In this document: in pieces, positions 4,076-28,601 of the stretch
Numbering within the stretch: position 1 is the stretch's first letter
How the letters are laid out: each line of letters starts with the position of its first letter
Origin: a virus
Reading direction: 5' to 3' (one strand)
Virus record (IMG/VR): IMGVR_UViG_3300043399_001247
Location: 1 to 50,703 of that record
DNA length: 50,703 nt
The notes under the pieces: generated by a model
Databases searched by the model: none
What the model was told of the DNA's origin: nothing
What the model saw: only the letters and a program-made list of their open reading frames with translations
Program-made: the position numbers and the translations under genes

Positions 4076-6891
4076 CCCTCCCGCAGCTGCGTTGCCGCAC
4101 CGAGTTTTCATTCCGGCAGGCCTTCGGGCCGGTGTCCCGGGTGGCGGCGGCCGCTGCCGCGCTGGGCGCTCCGGCGGCGGGGATCGTGGACGGTTCGACC
4201 TGGGGTCACGTCCGGTGGGCCAAGGCGGCCGCAAAAGAAGGCTTCAAGCCACTTTTCGGCACCGAGCTCACCGCTCCCTTCCCCGACGGCCGCAAGCCCC
4301 AGGCGTGGGCGTTGGCTGAAGATACGCGTTCTTTCTACCGCTGGTCCACGGCGCTACGCCAGAAAGAGGCCGATCCGCTGGCGCTCCTGGCGGACGCGAA
4401 GGGCGTTGTGCGTTTTTCTGGCCCGGGGCTGACGGACCCGGCGCTGTTCGATTACGTGGACCTCAACCCCAACTCCCCGGTGGAGCAGCGCGCGGCGGTC
4501 GCCCTGGCCCGCCGGACGGGCAAGCCGCTGGTCGTCACCAGCGCCAACAGCTACCCCCGCCGCGAGGACTACGACGCCTTCATGGCGATTGGCGGGCGCG
4601 AATCGACCACGCCGCAGCACCTGCTCAGCGCGGCCGAGCTGCGGCAACACATCCGGGTGCTGGACGACGCCGCGTGGGAGCAGGCCGTGCGCAACACTCA
4701 CGAGGTGGCCGAGCGGTGCGCGGGCGCGCTGCCGACCGCCCCGATCATTCAGGTCGCGGGCGACCTCCGCGCGCTGGCGGAAGCGGGGCGGCAGCGACGC
4801 TTGGCGCTCGGACACTTGCCCTCCTGGCCCGAGGAATACGCCGCGCGGCTGGAGCGGGAGCTGGTGGCGATCGAGCAGAAGGCGTTCGAGAGCTACTTCA
4901 TTGTCGTGGCCGACCTGATCGAGTGGGCCAAGCACCGCATGCTCGTCGGCCCCGGGCGCGGCTCGTCGGCGGGGTCGCTGCTGTGTTACTTGCTGGGCAT
5001 CACCGAGGTCGACCCAATCCCGCACGGGCTGCTGTTCGAACGGTTCATTGACCTGACCCGCAAGGACTTGCCCGACATCGACATCGACTTCAGCGACGTG
5101 AAGCGCGAGCAGTGCTTCGAATACTTGGCCGACAAGTATGGCCGCAACTGCGTGGCACGGATCGGCAACGTGAACACCTTGAAGCCGCGCTCCGTGATGG
5201 CCGAGGTGTGCAAGCGCTTCGGCATCCCCGACAAGGAGCGGTTCGACCTGCTCAACGTGCTGATTGAATACAGCTCGGGCGACAGCCGGTATGGCAAGGG
5301 GCTCGAAGACACCCTCAACAACACCGAGACGGGCAAGAAGTTCATGGCGCGGCACCCCAAGGCCGTGGTCATGAGCGAGGTGGAAAACCACGCCTGGCAC
5401 ACCGGGGTGCACGCCGCCGGGGTGATCGTGTGCAACGTGCCGGTGGACGAGTTCTGCACCATCGGCCCGGACGGCGTGGCGCACATCGACAAGCCCGACA
5501 GCGAATATCTCAACCTCCTGAAGATCGACGCGCTGGGGCTGCGCACCCTGGGCGTGATCGAGGACAGCGGCTGCGTGACCGCCGAGCAGCTCTACGGGCT
5601 CAAGTTGGACGACCCGGCGGTGTTGGACATATTCAACCAGCGCAAGTACACCGGCATCTTCCAGTTCGAGGGGCAATCCCAGCGCACCATCTCCGCGCAG
5701 GTGCACGTGGACAACTTCCGCACGGTGGACCACCTCACGGCGCTGGCGCGCCCCGGGCCGCTCGGCGGCGGCGCCACGGGCAAGTACATTGCGCGCAAGG
5801 CGGGAGCCGAACCCGTGAGCTACACGCACCCCGCCCTCCAGGAGCTCCTGCAGGACACCTACGGGGTGGTGCTCTACCAGGAACAGGTGATGCGCATCGT
5901 GCGCGACCTGGGCAAGTTCTCCTGGGACGAGACGACCGTGATCCGCAAGGCGATGTCTGGCCGCAAGGGCAAGGAGTTCTTCGACCAGCAAGGCGCAAAG
6001 TTCATCGCTGGCGCGGCGCAGGACGGCATCGACGAGGGCACGGCGCACGAGATCTGGAACGAGATCTGCAACTTCGGCGCGTGGGGCATGAACAAGAGCC
6101 ACACCTGCGCGTACGCGGTGATCAGCTACTGGTGCGCGTGGATGAAGGCGTACTACCCGTTGGAATACGCGGCGGCGTGCTTGCGCTCGGCCAAGGACGA
6201 CGACCAGACCATGGAGATCTTGCGCGAGATGGCCGCCGAGGGGGTGGATTACGTCGCGTTCGACCCCGAGCTCTCGGACGTGAACTGGGCCGTGCGCGAA
6301 GGGCGGCTGGTGGGCGGGTTCCTGAACTTGGTGGGCTTCGGCCCCTCGAAGGCGGTCGCCGCCGTCGAAGCGCGCCGCCTGGGCAAGATGGACGACAAGC
6401 TCCGCAAGCGTATCGCCGAGGCGCACGTGAAGTTCGACGACCTCTACCCAATCAGCCGCAAGTACGCCGCGTGGTACGCAGACCCTGCGGCGCACGGTTG
6501 CCGTGTTGGCTCCGTCATCTACAAGGCAGACGCTATGCCCGACCGGGGTGACATCCTGTTCATCGGCAAGGTCGTCAAGAAGGAGCTCCGCGACGAAAAT
6601 GAGACCGTGCGCGTGGCGCGGCGGGACGGACGCCGCCTGACGGGGCCGACGATCTTCGCGGACTTTTTCTGCAAGGACGACACCGGCATCCCGATCATCT
6701 GCCGCGTGGACCGCAAGGACTTCGAACCCCTGGGGCGCATTGCAATGGAGCGGCTCGTCGCCGAGCAGGACGTGATCCTGGTGCGGGGTCGCAAGATACC
6801 GAATTTCGGGATGATCAAGGTCGAGCGCATGAAGGTGCTCAACAGAGAGGAGAGCTTGCGTGAGGAAGCCGGAACAACGCTTGTGGGATAG
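4072..6891 (+). CDS. DNA polymerase III alpha-like (C-family) replicative polymerase
   Basis: 939 residues, shorter than bacterial DnaE (about 1,160). The palm has the signature PDIDIDF at residues 334-340 with the metal-binding aspartates, preceded by GPGRGSSAGSLLCYLLGI. The third acidic residue is expected at Asp486 in LLKIDALGLRTL. Finger-domain motifs RPGPLGGG and VLYQEQVMRI and the NFGAWGMNKSHTCAYA segment follow, then a helix-hairpin-like region and an OB-like C-terminal part. The N-terminal PHP domain (residues 1-200) is reduced and lacks the usual metal histidines, so it is probably inactive. That agrees with the separate exonuclease gene upstream. ATG 4072 is chosen for its overlap with the previous stop. 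Confidence 0.93.
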   Translation: MTLPQLRCRTEFSFRQAFGPVSRVAAAAAALGAPAAGIVDGSTWGHVRWAKAAAKEGFKPLFGTELTAPFPDGRKPQAWALAEDTRSFYRWSTALRQKEADPLALLADAKGVVRFSGPGLTDPALFDYVDLNPNSPVEQRAAVALARRTGKPLVVTSANSYPRREDYDAFMAIGGRESTTPQHLLSAAELRQHIRVLDDAAWEQAVRNTHEVAERCAGALPTAPIIQVAGDLRALAEAGRQRRLALGHLPSWPEEYAARLERELVAIEQKAFESYFIVVADLIEWAKHRMLVGPGRGSSAGSLLCYLLGITEVDPIPHGLLFERFIDLTRKDLPDIDIDFSDVKREQCFEYLADKYGRNCVARIGNVNTLKPRSVMAEVCKRFGIPDKERFDLLNVLIEYSSGDSRYGKGLEDTLNNTETGKKFMARHPKAVVMSEVENHAWHTGVHAAGVIVCNVPVDEFCTIGPDGVAHIDKPDSEYLNLLKIDALGLRTLGVIEDSGCVTAEQLYGLKLDDPAVLDIFNQRKYTGIFQFEGQSQRTISAQVHVDNFRTVDHLTALARPGPLGGGATGKYIARKAGAEPVSYTHPALQELLQDTYGVVLYQEQVMRIVRDLGKFSWDETTVIRKAMSGRKGKEFFDQQGAKFIAGAAQDGIDEGTAHEIWNEICNFGAWGMNKSHTCAYAVISYWCAWMKAYYPLEYAAACLRSAKDDDQTMEILREMAAEGVDYVAFDPELSDVNWAVREGRLVGGFLNLVGFGPSKAVAAVEARRLGKMDDKLRKRIAEAHVKFDDLYPISRKYAAWYADPAAHGCRVGSVIYKADAMPDRGDILFIGKVVKKELRDENETVRVARRDGRRLTGPTIFADFFCKDDTGIPIICRVDRKDFEPLGRIAMERLVAEQDVILVRGRKIPNFGMIKVERMKVLNREESLREEAGTTLVG

Positions 6892-25310: not shown

Positions 25311-25546
25311 TTCTTGGAATAGCCAAATCGCTCAATTGTTGACAAGTCTTCTACATCCTGCCAAATCGGATCAAGCGTCGGACCTTCGTATCCCGGTTGT
25401 CCATAGCCCTCGGGGTACACCTGAACGTTTTGTTTGCGCGTCATAGAGCCCTTAAGTTGGGCCATGAAGGTTTCATGTTCAGGCGTGCCAGCGATAGAGT
25501 CCAAGTCTTCACGCGTGTTAATGACTGTTTTAGAAAGTGATGCCAT
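25298..25546 (-). CDS. Small protein coupled to the DGR reverse transcriptase
   Basis: 82 residues, ATG 25546, overlapping the end of the reverse transcriptase gene by 17 bp. The sequence runs KTVINTREDLDSIAGTPEHE, FMAQLKGSMTRKQNVQVYPE, YEGPTLDPIWQDVEDLSTIE. This resembles small proteins found beside phage tail fibre genes, with no known function. It is less GC-rich than the virion genes, like the reverse transcriptase, so it may travel with the DGR. A role in fibre assembly or in the DGR is possible but unproven. Confidence 0.65.
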   Translation of the reverse strand: MASLSKTVINTREDLDSIAGTPEHETFMAQLKGSMTRKQNVQVYPEGYGQPGYEGPTLDPIWQDVEDLSTIERFGYSKNDFK

Positions 25547-26513
25547 AACGTTTCTCCATCCATTGAATCAGATTGTGTGAATCTGCCCACTGCGCGTGCC
25601 CAGACCACGCGGCGGCAAACTTTTGCAGCCCCTGCACGTCGCCGTGATGCACAAAGTTGGCAACTTTGCGTTTTGCTCGCAACACCGAATTTTTACGAAG
25701 CAGCTTGTGCGTCGGCCAGATTCGATAGCCTAGAAAATTAACACCCCGCTGCGTTGGCGAAATTTGCCACTTGCCAATGCGTAGCTTCAGGCGCTCCATT
25801 GAAAAATCATTGAGACGCAGAAAGCTGTCCATCAATTGATGTCGATTATCGCCTAGCACAACGATATCGTCCATGTACCGCGCCCAGTGCCGATGGCCTA
25901 AATCGAAATGCACAAACCGGTCGGCGGCGTTGCCGTAGACATTGGCAAACAGCTGGCTTGTCAGACTGCCAATTGGTATACCTTTGCCTTCAACAGGAAT
26001 GATCTCTCGCAGGATTGCAAGCGTCTTGGAGCAGTCAATCTTTTTGTCGATCATGGAGTGCAAGACAGCACGATCCACGCTGGGAAAGAACTTGGAATAA
26101 TCAGTCTTCAGGAAATACTTGGCCTCCGTGTATCGGAGCTTTGCCTGCACAAAGCGCACGCCCGCATGGGTGCCTAAGCCCACGCGGCAAGCAAATGTTT
26201 GAGGCAGCAGGCTGCGCTCGAAAATGGGTGCCACCACGTTGCAAAGCGCGTGCTGCACAAGACGGTCTTTGAAGTCCAGTGCCGAAATTAGCCTGGGCTT
26301 TGGCTCGTAGACCGTGAACTGCCGATAGCTGCCAATGCGATAGCCGCCGTCTTGCAACTCTTGCTGCACGCGCAGCAGATTAGCCTCTGCGTATTCTTTG
26401 AACTCCAAGTAGCCAAACGTCTGCTTCTTTCCGCTTGAGGTCTTTTGATAAGCAAGCCGCAGGTTGTCCATGTCGGCAATGGAGCCGATCAGATTGCGAT
26501 GCTTCTTGCCCAT
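25530..26513 (-). CDS. DGR reverse transcriptase
   Basis: 327 residues. The palm contains KTDYSKFFPSVD with Asp138, the box IGSLTSQLFANVYGN at 181-195 (the G-x-x-x-SQ form of DGR and group II-like enzymes) and YMDD at 213-216 with the two catalytic aspartates. Fingers motifs include RLISALDFKDRLVQHAL near 74-90. It should copy the template RNA into cDNA while misincorporating at adenines, so new sequence is moved into the variable repeat. ATG 26513 begins after a 151-bp spacer from the template repeat. The same frame is open up to 27134 but runs through the template repeat and the Avd gene, so a longer protein is unlikely. No strong ribosome site is visible before 26513, so the start is somewhat uncertain. 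Confidence 0.93.
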   Translation of the reverse strand: MGKKHRNLIGSIADMDNLRLAYQKTSSGKKQTFGYLEFKEYAEANLLRVQQELQDGGYRIGSYRQFTVYEPKPRLISALDFKDRLVQHALCNVVAPIFERSLLPQTFACRVGLGTHAGVRFVQAKLRYTEAKYFLKTDYSKFFPSVDRAVLHSMIDKKIDCSKTLAILREIIPVEGKGIPIGSLTSQLFANVYGNAADRFVHFDLGHRHWARYMDDIVVLGDNRHQLMDSFLRLNDFSMERLKLRIGKWQISPTQRGVNFLGYRIWPTHKLLRKNSVLRAKRKVANFVHHGDVQGLQKFAAAWSGHAQWADSHNLIQWMEKRYGITF

Positions 26514-26664
26514 AAAAAAGTCGGCCGCGCTTTTGGATTTCCTACTAAGCGTTCTGCCGAACCGCGTGATGTATTTCCCGAAGGAGGATAAGACTGGCTG
26601 ACCACACTTTGATTGGCCTGCCCGCGTCGCCGTGGCAAACGTGGAGCGATAAAGTGGTGATGTC
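26514..26664 (-). ncRNA. TR-RT spacer, probable part of the DGR RNA
   Basis: 151 bp between the template repeat and the reverse transcriptase start, with no credible gene. In the studied Bordetella element the RNA downstream of TR is needed for priming and reverse transcription, and the spacer length here is similar. No protein or promoter signal was seen. Confidence 0.5.
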
Positions 26665-26785
26665 GTCACAGGCGAAGCGCGACCCGATGTTGTTGTTCGA
26701 GTTCGACGCAGCGTTGTTCCAGTTCGAGCATCGAGAACCGGAGTTTGCACCGTTGTTCCAGTTGCCGCCAAGGAGGACCGCATTT
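26665..26785 (-). repeat. DGR template repeat (TR)
   Basis: 121 bp read on the minus strand. It aligns without gaps to VR (27201-27321), with 111 identities. In the adhesin's reading frame it holds eleven AAC codons, in groups around NWNN, SNWNN and SNSNNN. AAC turned into NNC can give 15 amino acids and never a stop codon. TR begins 9 bp after the Avd stop codon and should be transcribed as an RNA template rather than translated. Confidence 0.95.
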
Positions 26786-26794
26786 TGACCCAGC

Positions 26795-27160
26795 CTATCC
26801 CTGCTTTTGCCTGCGCTTGATCCAGGCTCCGACCATCGCGCCAACCTCTGCGATCAGCACTTGTGCTGTTTGGAGTTGGTGCGCGGTCATTGCTCGGATT
26901 GAGAGCAGGAATCGCATCCAGAATCGCAAATGAGCAAGCGCCGCATCCGCGATGTAAATCTTTGAGACTTGATTGGATTTTCCCGCTTGAAAGAAAAGGT
27001 CTGGAACACCTAGCAGGCACTCCAGAAACATCTCTCGCGCCACCCCATGCTTGCGCGGCATCGACTGGGCGATGGGGTACAAGTACGCGATCACGCGCTC
27101 GTACTTTTCCACGATGACCATTTGGTCGTAGCATGTGGTGGCGTCTTTGGCGGGTTCCAT
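26795..27160 (-). CDS. avd: Accessory variability determinant (Avd-like)
   Basis: 121 residues, all helical, about the size of the Bordetella Avd. Two family blocks are visible: YERVIAYLYPIAQSMPRKHG near residue 20, and a C-terminal run with LRFWMRFLLSIRAMTAHQLQ followed by GAMVGAWIKRRQKQG. Avd proteins form a basic five-subunit barrel of four-helix bundles that binds the reverse transcriptase and template RNA. The lysine/arginine-rich tail fits. ATG 27160 is preferred because it leaves the homing hairpin untranslated. A TTG at 27190 would add ten residues encoded by the hairpin itself and lacks a clear ribosome site. Confidence 0.88.
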   Translation of the reverse strand: MEPAKDATTCYDQMVIVEKYERVIAYLYPIAQSMPRKHGVAREMFLECLLGVPDLFFQAGKSNQVSKIYIADAALAHLRFWMRFLLSIRAMTAHQLQTAQVLIAEVGAMVGAWIKRRQKQG

Positions 27161-27166
27161 CTTATC

Positions 27167-27182
27167 GGGCGCTTTCGCGCCC
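27167..27182 (-). promoter_or_regulatory. DGR homing-site hairpin/cruciform with GAAA tetraloop
   Basis: Minus strand GGGCGC-GAAA-GCGCCC, a perfect 6-bp GC stem, beginning immediately after the stop codon of the variable gene and 18 bp beyond the end of VR. In the Bordetella phage DGR a GC-rich inverted repeat with a GRNA-type tetraloop at this place is needed for efficient target recognition. I see no similar structure directly after TR, which would fit its role in marking the recipient copy. Confidence 0.8.
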
Positions 27183-28601
27183 TCAATCAAGACTCAGGTG
27201 GTCACAGGCGAAGCGCGACCCGATGTTGCTGAGCGAGTTCGACGCAGCGTTGTCCCAGACCGAGCATCGAGAACCGGAGTTCGCACCGCTGGTCCAGCTG
27301 CCGCCAAGGAGGACCGCATTTGGCGCGTTGTACTCGCTGCCCCGGCCTTCGGTGTTGGCGTTCCACGCAGCCGATGCAAACGGGCCGCCCCGCTCCTGGC
27401 CCCAAATCCACAGCACGCCCGCAGCCTGAATCACGCCCCACTTGGAGGTGTAGGCCGCATTGAGAATTGTGCTGCCCTGGTCGGTGCCGATGCTAGACGC
27501 CTCAGTTGTGCCGTAGGCGGCAGACATGAACTCTTGCTGGGTCGGGCAGCGCTTACCGAATGCGGTAGCCAACTCCATCGCCTCAAACCACGTGTAGCTG
27601 CCGTAGGTGGTGGAGCCGTTACCGCCAAACAGCGTCGGCACCTTGGGTGGGCTGGAGCCGTCGGCCATCGTCACGTTGTACTTGGAGGAGCCGTTGGTGA
27701 TGGCATCCACGCCGGTCAGGTAGATGTCCACCCAGAAGCCGCCAGCGACCAGGGTCATGCCACGCGGGTCAGAGCAAGACGGACGCCATTTCAAATCCCA
27801 GAAGCTGTACTCATTGATCTGCGCCGTAGTGTTGCCGCCAGATTGAGCCGTGGCATTGCCACCAGGCGCGTAATGGAAACCACCGACCTTGCGAGCATTA
27901 GCCGTAGGTGGCGAGGTGTGGTTGCTGGTTGCCTCTAGCGTGCCGTCTGTCTTCGCCCAGATGGCGTAGTCAGTGCCCGCCGAGAGAGACGGCATCGTGA
28001 TGCTGGCCCCACTGGCGATGGTCTTCATTTCGCCATTGACCTCGACATACAGAATGGACGACGTGGTCGCAGTGCCATTGCCCGTCTTTGTCCACGCGAC
28101 AATGGTCGAGTCTGCTTTTGTAAACAGACCTCGGTTGTTTGCTGCATTAAACGCTTGAACATCTGTGCCAATTGCAAGCCCTAAGTTGGTACGAGCATTG
28201 GCCGCAGTGCCAGCGCCGGTGCCCCCGTTGGCGACGGCCACCGTCCCCGTCACGTTGGCCGCAGTCCCTGTCGTGTTCTGATTCAGCGTTGGGACGTCGG
28301 CGGCTTGGATCGCCGACATCGCCACGTTGCTGCCGTTGCCGCGCAGGTATTGGCCGGAGGTGGTCGCCCCGGCGAGCGCGTTGATTGCGGCTTGTTGCGT
28401 GGTCTGCCCGGTGCCGCCCGCGCTGATCGGGGTGGTCTTCCAAGCGAGCACCTGCACCGAGCCGCTCGAATCCTTGTAGAAGAGCTTGCCGTCGGCGGTG
28501 TTGATGGCCAACTCGCCGTCGAGCAAGTTGCCCGCAGTCGGGGCGGCAGCAGGCGTAGCCGACTTGTAGAGTTGAATGGGCGTGTAGCCAGTTTGTGCCA
28601 T
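27183..28601 (-). CDS. DGR variable protein, Mtd-like receptor-binding protein
   Basis: 472 residues. The N terminus (IQLYKSATPAAAPTAGNLLD then GELAINTADGKLFYKDSSG) is a tail-attachment domain seen in Mtd-type and other fibre proteins. Residues 57-150 carry fibre repeats (SAGGTGQTTQQAAINALAG; VANGGTGAGTAANARTNLG). From about residue 270 a C-type-lectin/formylglycine-enzyme-like fold begins (DPRGMTLVAGGFWVDIYLTG). It ends with the variable repeat at residues 428-467, which keeps the frame GGxWxxGxxxGxRC and IGSRF. Seven residues differ from the template (435, 437, 438, 448, 450, 457, 458). The protein should sit at the fibre tip and bind the host receptor. Confidence 0.93.
   Translation of the reverse strand: MAQTGYTPIQLYKSATPAAAPTAGNLLDGELAINTADGKLFYKDSSGSVQVLAWKTTPISAGGTGQTTQQAAINALAGATTSGQYLRGNGSNVAMSAIQAADVPTLNQNTTGTAANVTGTVAVANGGTGAGTAANARTNLGLAIGTDVQAFNAANNRGLFTKADSTIVAWTKTGNGTATTSSILYVEVNGEMKTIASGASITMPSLSAGTDYAIWAKTDGTLEATSNHTSPPTANARKVGGFHYAPGGNATAQSGGNTTAQINEYSFWDLKWRPSCSDPRGMTLVAGGFWVDIYLTGVDAITNGSSKYNVTMADGSSPPKVPTLFGGNGSTTYGSYTWFEAMELATAFGKRCPTQQEFMSAAYGTTEASSIGTDQGSTILNAAYTSKWGVIQAAGVLWIWGQERGGPFASAAWNANTEGRGSEYNAPNAVLLGGSWTSGANSGSRCSVWDNAASNSLSNIGSRFACDHLSLD
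27201..27321 (-). repeat. DGR variable repeat (VR)
   Basis: 121 bp forming codons 428-467 of the adhesin. It differs from TR at ten bases, all at template adenines (29 adenines are available; none of the other 92 bases differs). Seven AAC codons became AGC, ACC, AGC, GTC, GAC, CTC and AGC, and one GCA became GCG without changing alanine. The last 27 bases before the end (IGSRFACD) are identical in TR and VR and form the GC-rich homing initiation site. Confidence 0.95.

Follow-up and report, generated by a model that had tools for sequence, protein, structure and literature searches.

In the diversity-generating retroelement (DGR) of Bordetella phage BPP-1, the target site carries a hairpin, or cruciform, that forms in negatively supercoiled DNA and affects the efficiency of integration, not its site (Guo et al. 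2011, PMC3240598). Activity depends on the structure of the stem and on both the size and the sequence of the loop: a changed loop nearly abolished homing, and removal of 2 bp from the 8-bp stem left activity markedly lower, while homing in phage was independent of target orientation (PMC3240598). The phage hairpins published for eight DGRs have a 4-nt GRNA loop on the sense strand and a GC-rich stem of 7 to 10 bp, and lie 4 to 34 bp from the variable repeat (PMC3240598). In E. coli, repair is severely but incompletely impaired once the hairpin is deleted, and editing works best if the strand to which the cDNA is complementary serves as lagging-strand template; the authors propose that the stem-loop makes the open state last longer, and they call inconclusive the result that primase changes had no effect (PMC12875486).

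A BPP-1-type DGR and its hairpin

The stretch analysed here (the window), 50,703 bases long, is a complete virus record. Judged by its gene content and repeats, the element it contains is a Bordetella BPP-1-type DGR, with a reverse transcriptase (RT), Avd, an Mtd-like adhesin, an A-specific pair of template and variable repeats (TR and VR) and a Phage_DGR RNA. In minus-strand order, the adhesin gene, which ends in VR, is followed by the hairpin, Avd, TR, the RNA and the RT:

27183..28601, minus strand: Mtd-like adhesin gene, the DGR target (Pfam mtd_2nd PF21916; phrog_11262, tail protein); its stop codon touches the hairpin
27198..27321, minus strand: VR, the variable (recipient) repeat, 91% identical to TR
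27167..27182, minus strand: hairpin GGGCGC-GAAA-GCGCCC, read directly, with a 6-bp stem and a GNNA loop on the coding strand
26795..27160, minus strand: Avd gene from the ATG at 27160, where its homology starts (bAvd PF22296; phrog_3206, Avd protein of DGR)
26662..26785, minus strand: TR, the template repeat, from repeat comparison with VR
26520..26647, minus strand: Phage_DGR RNA (RF03022), downstream of TR, scoring 103.8 bits against a gathering score of 50
25530..26513, minus strand: DGR reverse transcriptase with an RYMDD motif (RVT_1; phrog_1423), 68% identical to BPP-1 Brt; the ATG at 26513 was read from the sequence

The closest annotated relative was BPP-1 itself, 67% identical in DNA over about 2.4 kb and 68% identical in the RT. 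Of the 124 bp compared between TR and VR, 11 differ, 10 of them at a template A. At the 3' end of the repeats, where a BPP-1-type DGR is expected to have an IMH at VR and a differing IMH* at TR, identity is unbroken over the final 28 bases before 27200, after which there is a G/C difference and the homology stops. A search for further VRs across the record returned only VR and TR. The window also holds a 534-aa open frame (25530-27134, minus strand) that covers part of Avd, continues across TR and the DGR RNA and enters the RT; it is probably due to chance, and automated annotation could overextend the RT along it. Genes annotated as mtd in the Synechococcus phages S-CBS1 and S-CBS3 (H49-H52) match the adhesin stretch at the DNA level.

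The hairpin (minus strand 27182-27167, GGGCGCGAAAGCGCCC) abuts the TGA of the adhesin gene (27185-27183). Its stem is exactly 6 bp long and all G-C, the next three positions outward being unpaired, and the Avd ATG lies 6 nt past it, both flanking genes being read in the same direction. Thus, the placement directly after the adhesin stop and the stem length claimed by an earlier reading of the window, made from the sequence only, were both confirmed, as was its statement that no such hairpin follows TR, in whose 3' flank inspection revealed nothing comparable. Its distance of 18 bp from the end of VR holds when counted from the last base of unbroken TR/VR identity (27201), and becomes 15 bp when counted from the base at which the VR alignment ends (27198).

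Folded as DNA, the 16-mer gave -7.8 kcal/mol; with the DNA parameters of ViennaRNA, the coding-strand hairpin was favoured by only 0.4 kcal/mol, so that the model gives little discrimination between the strands. The window contains 24 perfect stems of 6 bp or more with a 4-nt loop; on its minus strand, this hairpin is the only one combining a GNNA loop with at least six perfect pairs. Such a hairpin was found in a proportion of 0.00077 of 27,228 random 66-nt stretches from the viral loci. We conclude that the hairpin is genuine, very likely functional, and an example of a kind already known.

The locus resembles that of BPP-1 in gene order, in the position of the hairpin after VR and the adhesin stop and before Avd, in its coding-strand GAAA loop and in its GC-rich stem (PMC3240598). 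It differs in stem length (6 bp versus 8 bp) and in the gap from VR (15 to 18 bp versus 4 bp). With respect to the published phage set, loop (GAAA) and VR distance (15 to 18 bp) are in agreement, whereas the stem is shorter (6 bp versus 7 to 10 bp).

Conservation and covariation among BPP-1-like viral relatives

A search with the RT yielded 78 viral loci (group A). Eight of them, mostly contigs ending near the RT, had no TR/VR pair and were left out; the other 70 plus the window gave 57 distinct VR flanks. The hairpin thresholds (pairs, loop ends) were set after inspecting this group. When one mismatch was tolerated, a GNNA hairpin was present 3' of VR at 54 of the 57 distinct sites, closed by C-G in 52 and by T-A in 2. 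Perfect hairpins of at least five pairs were found in 51 of the 57 flanks, and of at least six pairs in 47, compared to none in 58 distinct TR flanks and none in 330 stretches after other long open reading frames. The BPP-1 hairpin, used as a positive control, was recovered with its 8-bp stem and GAAA loop, 4 bp away from where VR is annotated to end. Stems of six uninterrupted pairs formed the commonest class (26 of the 54), so the stem of the window is no oddity, even though it falls below the published range of 7 to 10 bp, and this range, which is based on eight DGRs, seems too narrow.

Three VR flanks fell outside the 54: L046, with a GATA loop and a tandem G.A step; L080, a distant DGR of the Bacteroides type; and L024, with none. 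In the last (IMGVR_UViG_3300047288_000038), the stretch between the adhesin stop codon and the ATG of Avd, at about 5334-5363, contains no hairpin, while the adhesin, Avd and RT frames are intact and 19 of 23 TR/VR differences lie at a template A. The case named in the sequence-only reading as contrary evidence, a related element that keeps homing activity but is devoid of the inverted repeat, may exist once. L024 shows that the hairpin can be lost, which is consistent with the residual activity published for a target without the inverted repeat (PMC12875486).

The RT of L034 (3638-4612) is 68% identical to that of the window, the DNA upstream of it looks unrelated, and no TR/VR repeat was found there; this RT is perhaps orphan or moved. 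In L041, L042, L052, L064 and L277, a second stem (CGCTCA-GGA-TGAGCG or alike) lies past the main hairpin and overlaps the Avd start codon, and could bear on Avd translation. The Avd ATG of L031, L039 and L272 is located at the last base of the 3' arm of the hairpin or next to it, and L084 has an Avd GTG start inside that arm.

Covariation was analysed in 50 distinct 20-base hairpins, each with at least four of six pairs formed and both inner pairs present. This selection inflates the percentage of paired cells; among the 80 loci entered, L080 alone failed and L024 passed falsely. The false centre of L024 was counted in the changes on the RT tree and removed before the covariation analysis. 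All six stem pairs varied on both sides, 95.3% of cells were paired (64.1% in shuffled sets), and covariation scored 0.668, versus 0.132 for shuffled sets and at most 0.177 when the frame was slid. Paired stem changes in related DGRs, proposed beforehand as a check on the hairpin, were therefore found. On the RT tree of 77 loci, stem pairs 3 to 6 changed 13, 21, 10 and 15 times, and loop bases 2 and 3 changed 10 and 8 times, respectively; loop bases 1 and 4 showed no change. Selection preserves the shape of the hairpin and the two loop ends, not the sequence of the stem.

The third loop base was a pyrimidine in 22 of the 52 distinct C-G-closed tetraloops. The GNRA loop family, which is favoured in RNA, admits no pyrimidine at that base; these 22 loops are thus not of the RNA type, which points to DNA rather than RNA as the acting form.

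The loop rule in distant DGRs

All sets together comprised 292 loci, of which 50 had no TR/VR pair and were left out; the remaining 242 gave 206 distinct VR flanks, those identical over 50 nt being counted once. Besides group A, these sets included group C, from GTDB genomes (L101-L180, the best 80 of 550 relatives in the GTDB scan), group E, of the Bacteroides type (L189-L268, the best 80 of 94), and groups B, D and F. The counts retain some probably false VRs (the third pairs of L123, L156 and L203 and the second pairs of L187, L259 and L260), and five group A matches with the core CA-GGA-TG represent a longer second stem that outranked the real hairpin.

With these provisos, a GNNA or GNA hairpin followed VR in 45 of 50 BPP-1-like flanks, 13 of 22 in groups B and F, 27 of 70 in the GTDB group, 2 of 5 in group D and 4 of 59 in the Bacteroides type. 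After TR, the corresponding values were 0 of 49, 1 of 21, 2 of 65, 1 of 5 and 5 of 57, against a background rate of 1.2 to 1.6%. The rule was strand specific: GN(N)A hairpins followed 91 of the 206 VR flanks, compared to 2 of 206 for the opposite-strand TN(N)C form. It is accordingly widespread but fails in the Bacteroides-type set, in which VR flanks showed no excess over TR flanks, and universality of the hairpin across DGRs was rejected on this ground. Triloop hairpins amounted to 12 distinct cases, several with the core GCGAAGC (e.g., L111, L122, L152 and L153). L122 and L123 each have two VRs, both with a hairpin, and one VR of L122 lies with its hairpin more than 1.7 kb beyond the RT.

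Some flanks had seemed devoid of a hairpin owing to arms that read alike, as in GCGAGC-GAAA-GCGAGC. A scan was performed for any two adjacent mismatches within otherwise paired GN(N)A hairpins, the G.A threshold being chosen after all groups had been viewed. It returned 17 cases in the 206 VR flanks, 14 of them 5'-GA/5'-GA. The 197 TR flanks gave 3 cases, none of this type, and the background gave 601 cases among 28,500 stretches, of which 24 were 5'-GA/5'-GA. Since the 14 include relatives (e.g., L182 and L183), they stand for fewer than 14 independent origins. In DNA, tandem sheared G.A steps are stable. In the literature searched, which included few subscription papers, we found no mention for DGRs of tandem G.A stems or of a mini-hairpin reading; as far as searched, what is new in this work is the broader rule for loop and stem, together with its interpretation as that of a DNA mini-hairpin.

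A separate feature was seen just after VR in many group C and group E DGRs, namely CTG/CTT units spaced 7 to 8 nt apart (e.g., ATCTTAAATCTTTGTATCT or CCCTTT units), often with a GNA/GNNA hairpin 32 to 55 nt further on. Chains of at least three units followed VR in 39 of 70 flanks in group C and 29 of 59 in group E, on the coding strand only and with related loci unthinned, and followed TR in 0 of 65 and 0 of 57, the background being about 1.2%. The array may be a second target element; no mention of it was found in the same searched literature.

Proposed function and comparison with known systems

Presence, position, strand, covariation, fixed loop ends and absence after TR were all observed here in the sequences. 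The explanation that we consider quite likely as a whole is that the hairpin is the published target-site (recipient) hairpin of a BPP-1-type DGR and acts as a DNA mini-hairpin. The sequence-only reading had proposed a target-recognition hairpin of the Bordetella type, an assignment that gains from the kinship with BPP-1, the recovery of the control, the placement at VR and not at TR, and the covariation; the role in efficiency is itself known for BPP-1 only.

The hairpin would make the transfer of mutagenized TR cDNA into VR more efficient and, given its absence from TR, probably helps to keep this transfer one-way. It would do so as DNA, not as RNA. On the coding strand, the C-GNNA-G core, set on G-C pairs, would extrude under negative supercoiling or in replication gaps, resist re-annealing and so keep the 3' end of VR open, and the cDNA, complementary to the coding strand, could pair at the opened end. 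Selection would then be for hairpin stability, a possibility that Guo et al. had already named for the loop (PMC3240598). Whether the hairpin holds VR open rather than recruiting RT and Avd we regard as an even call. Somewhat short of an even chance, in our estimate, is the wider proposal that DGR target sites, whether in phages, in bacteria or in archaea, have a structural code in common and not a sequence: a coding-strand mini-hairpin, C-GNNA-G or C-GNA-G, with tandem sheared G.A allowed, extruded by supercoiling as in phage N4 and resistant to SSB, by which the VR strand is held open.

Several results weigh against parts of this explanation. The loss of activity on shortening the BPP-1 stem counts against it, since the stem of the window has only 6 bp; the small computed strand difference (0.4 kcal/mol) counts against the step from a stable hairpin on the coding strand to an open VR; and L024 and the Bacteroides-type DGRs count against its generality. 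The replication-gap mechanism is weakened by the orientation independence of homing in phage and by the null result with primase, both of which also count against that step.

Docking of a protein or RNA partner is a possible alternative, though we give it clearly less than an even chance. In this case RT, Avd, the RNA or a host nuclease would read the loop and guide the cDNA complex to VR or cut at that site, with the stability of the DNA being secondary. The invariant loop G and A agree with such a contact, as does the near loss of homing in BPP-1 after changes of loop sequence or size, for which the authors list direct contact as possible (PMC3240598). However, the same rule covers the 12 distinct triloops and the 14 tandem G.A stems of distant DGRs, a range that stability explains more easily than a single contact surface.

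It is very unlikely that the hairpin acts in mRNA to control termination or translation at the junction of the adhesin and Avd genes, despite its location between co-directional genes and 6 nt before the Avd ATG. No T run follows the stem and a terminator scan did not call this place, on which grounds an intrinsic terminator was rejected; the third-base pyrimidines depart from the RNA-type loop, and one of the two VRs of L122, both with such hairpins, lies far beyond the RT.

Even less probable is the idea, put forward in the sequence-only reading, that the hairpin DNA also encodes the N-terminus of Avd from a TTG at 27190. In the window, an open frame does run from that TTG across the hairpin and on into Avd, but homology to Avd starts at the ATG at 27160. 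With the frame set by Avd homology (64 distinct loci examined, 63 with an Avd match), an in-frame stop was present within or after the hairpin in 34 of the 63, the frame was open with no upstream start in 23, and it was open with a start in 6, including the window by virtue of its TTG. The overlap between hairpin and Avd frame is thus not conserved, and double coding was rejected. A chance inverted repeat in GC-rich DNA, conceivable in view of the 24 comparable stems in the window, is contradicted by loop type, position, conservation and covariation and was rejected as practically negligible.

For the window, the analogy with BPP-1 is upgraded to a supported assignment, and the double-coding idea is removed. 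If the mark of the recipient is a DNA mini-hairpin rather than a sequence, sites would be recognisable by a GNNA or GNA loop, C-G closure and tolerance of G.A steps, on the VR side only.

Known systems outside the phage DGRs resemble this hairpin in different respects. Group IIC introns, a related retroelement family, also target DNA stem-loops, but their targets are terminator hairpins with little loop dependence (PMC3240598). The nanoarchaeal DUSEL4 DGR has a hairpin next to VR, whose GRA loop is the triloop form of the rule; unlike that of the window, it is a triloop placed inside the target gene (PMC4372165). The promoter hairpins of the phage N4 virion RNA polymerase share the C-G closure and a loop with 5' G and 3' A, and are strand specific and extruded by supercoiling; SSB melts the hairpin of the other strand and spares this one (PMC4496689). 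They serve, however, as promoters for an RNA polymerase and have a GNA-type loop, whereas the window has a tetraloop, so the resemblance is in mechanism only. The extraordinarily stable DNA mini-hairpins d(GCGAAGC) and d(GCGAAAGC) consist of two or more G-C pairs capped by a GNA or GNNA loop (PMC4686876), and a title on the d(cGNNAg) mini-hairpin is cited in PMC6811676. These are measured oligonucleotides. The hairpin of the window includes the octamer GCGAAAGC, and its GC-GAAA-GC core has the form of GNNA on at least two G-C pairs. The loop rule of the DGRs is the published rule for extraordinarily stable mini-hairpins (PMC4686876).
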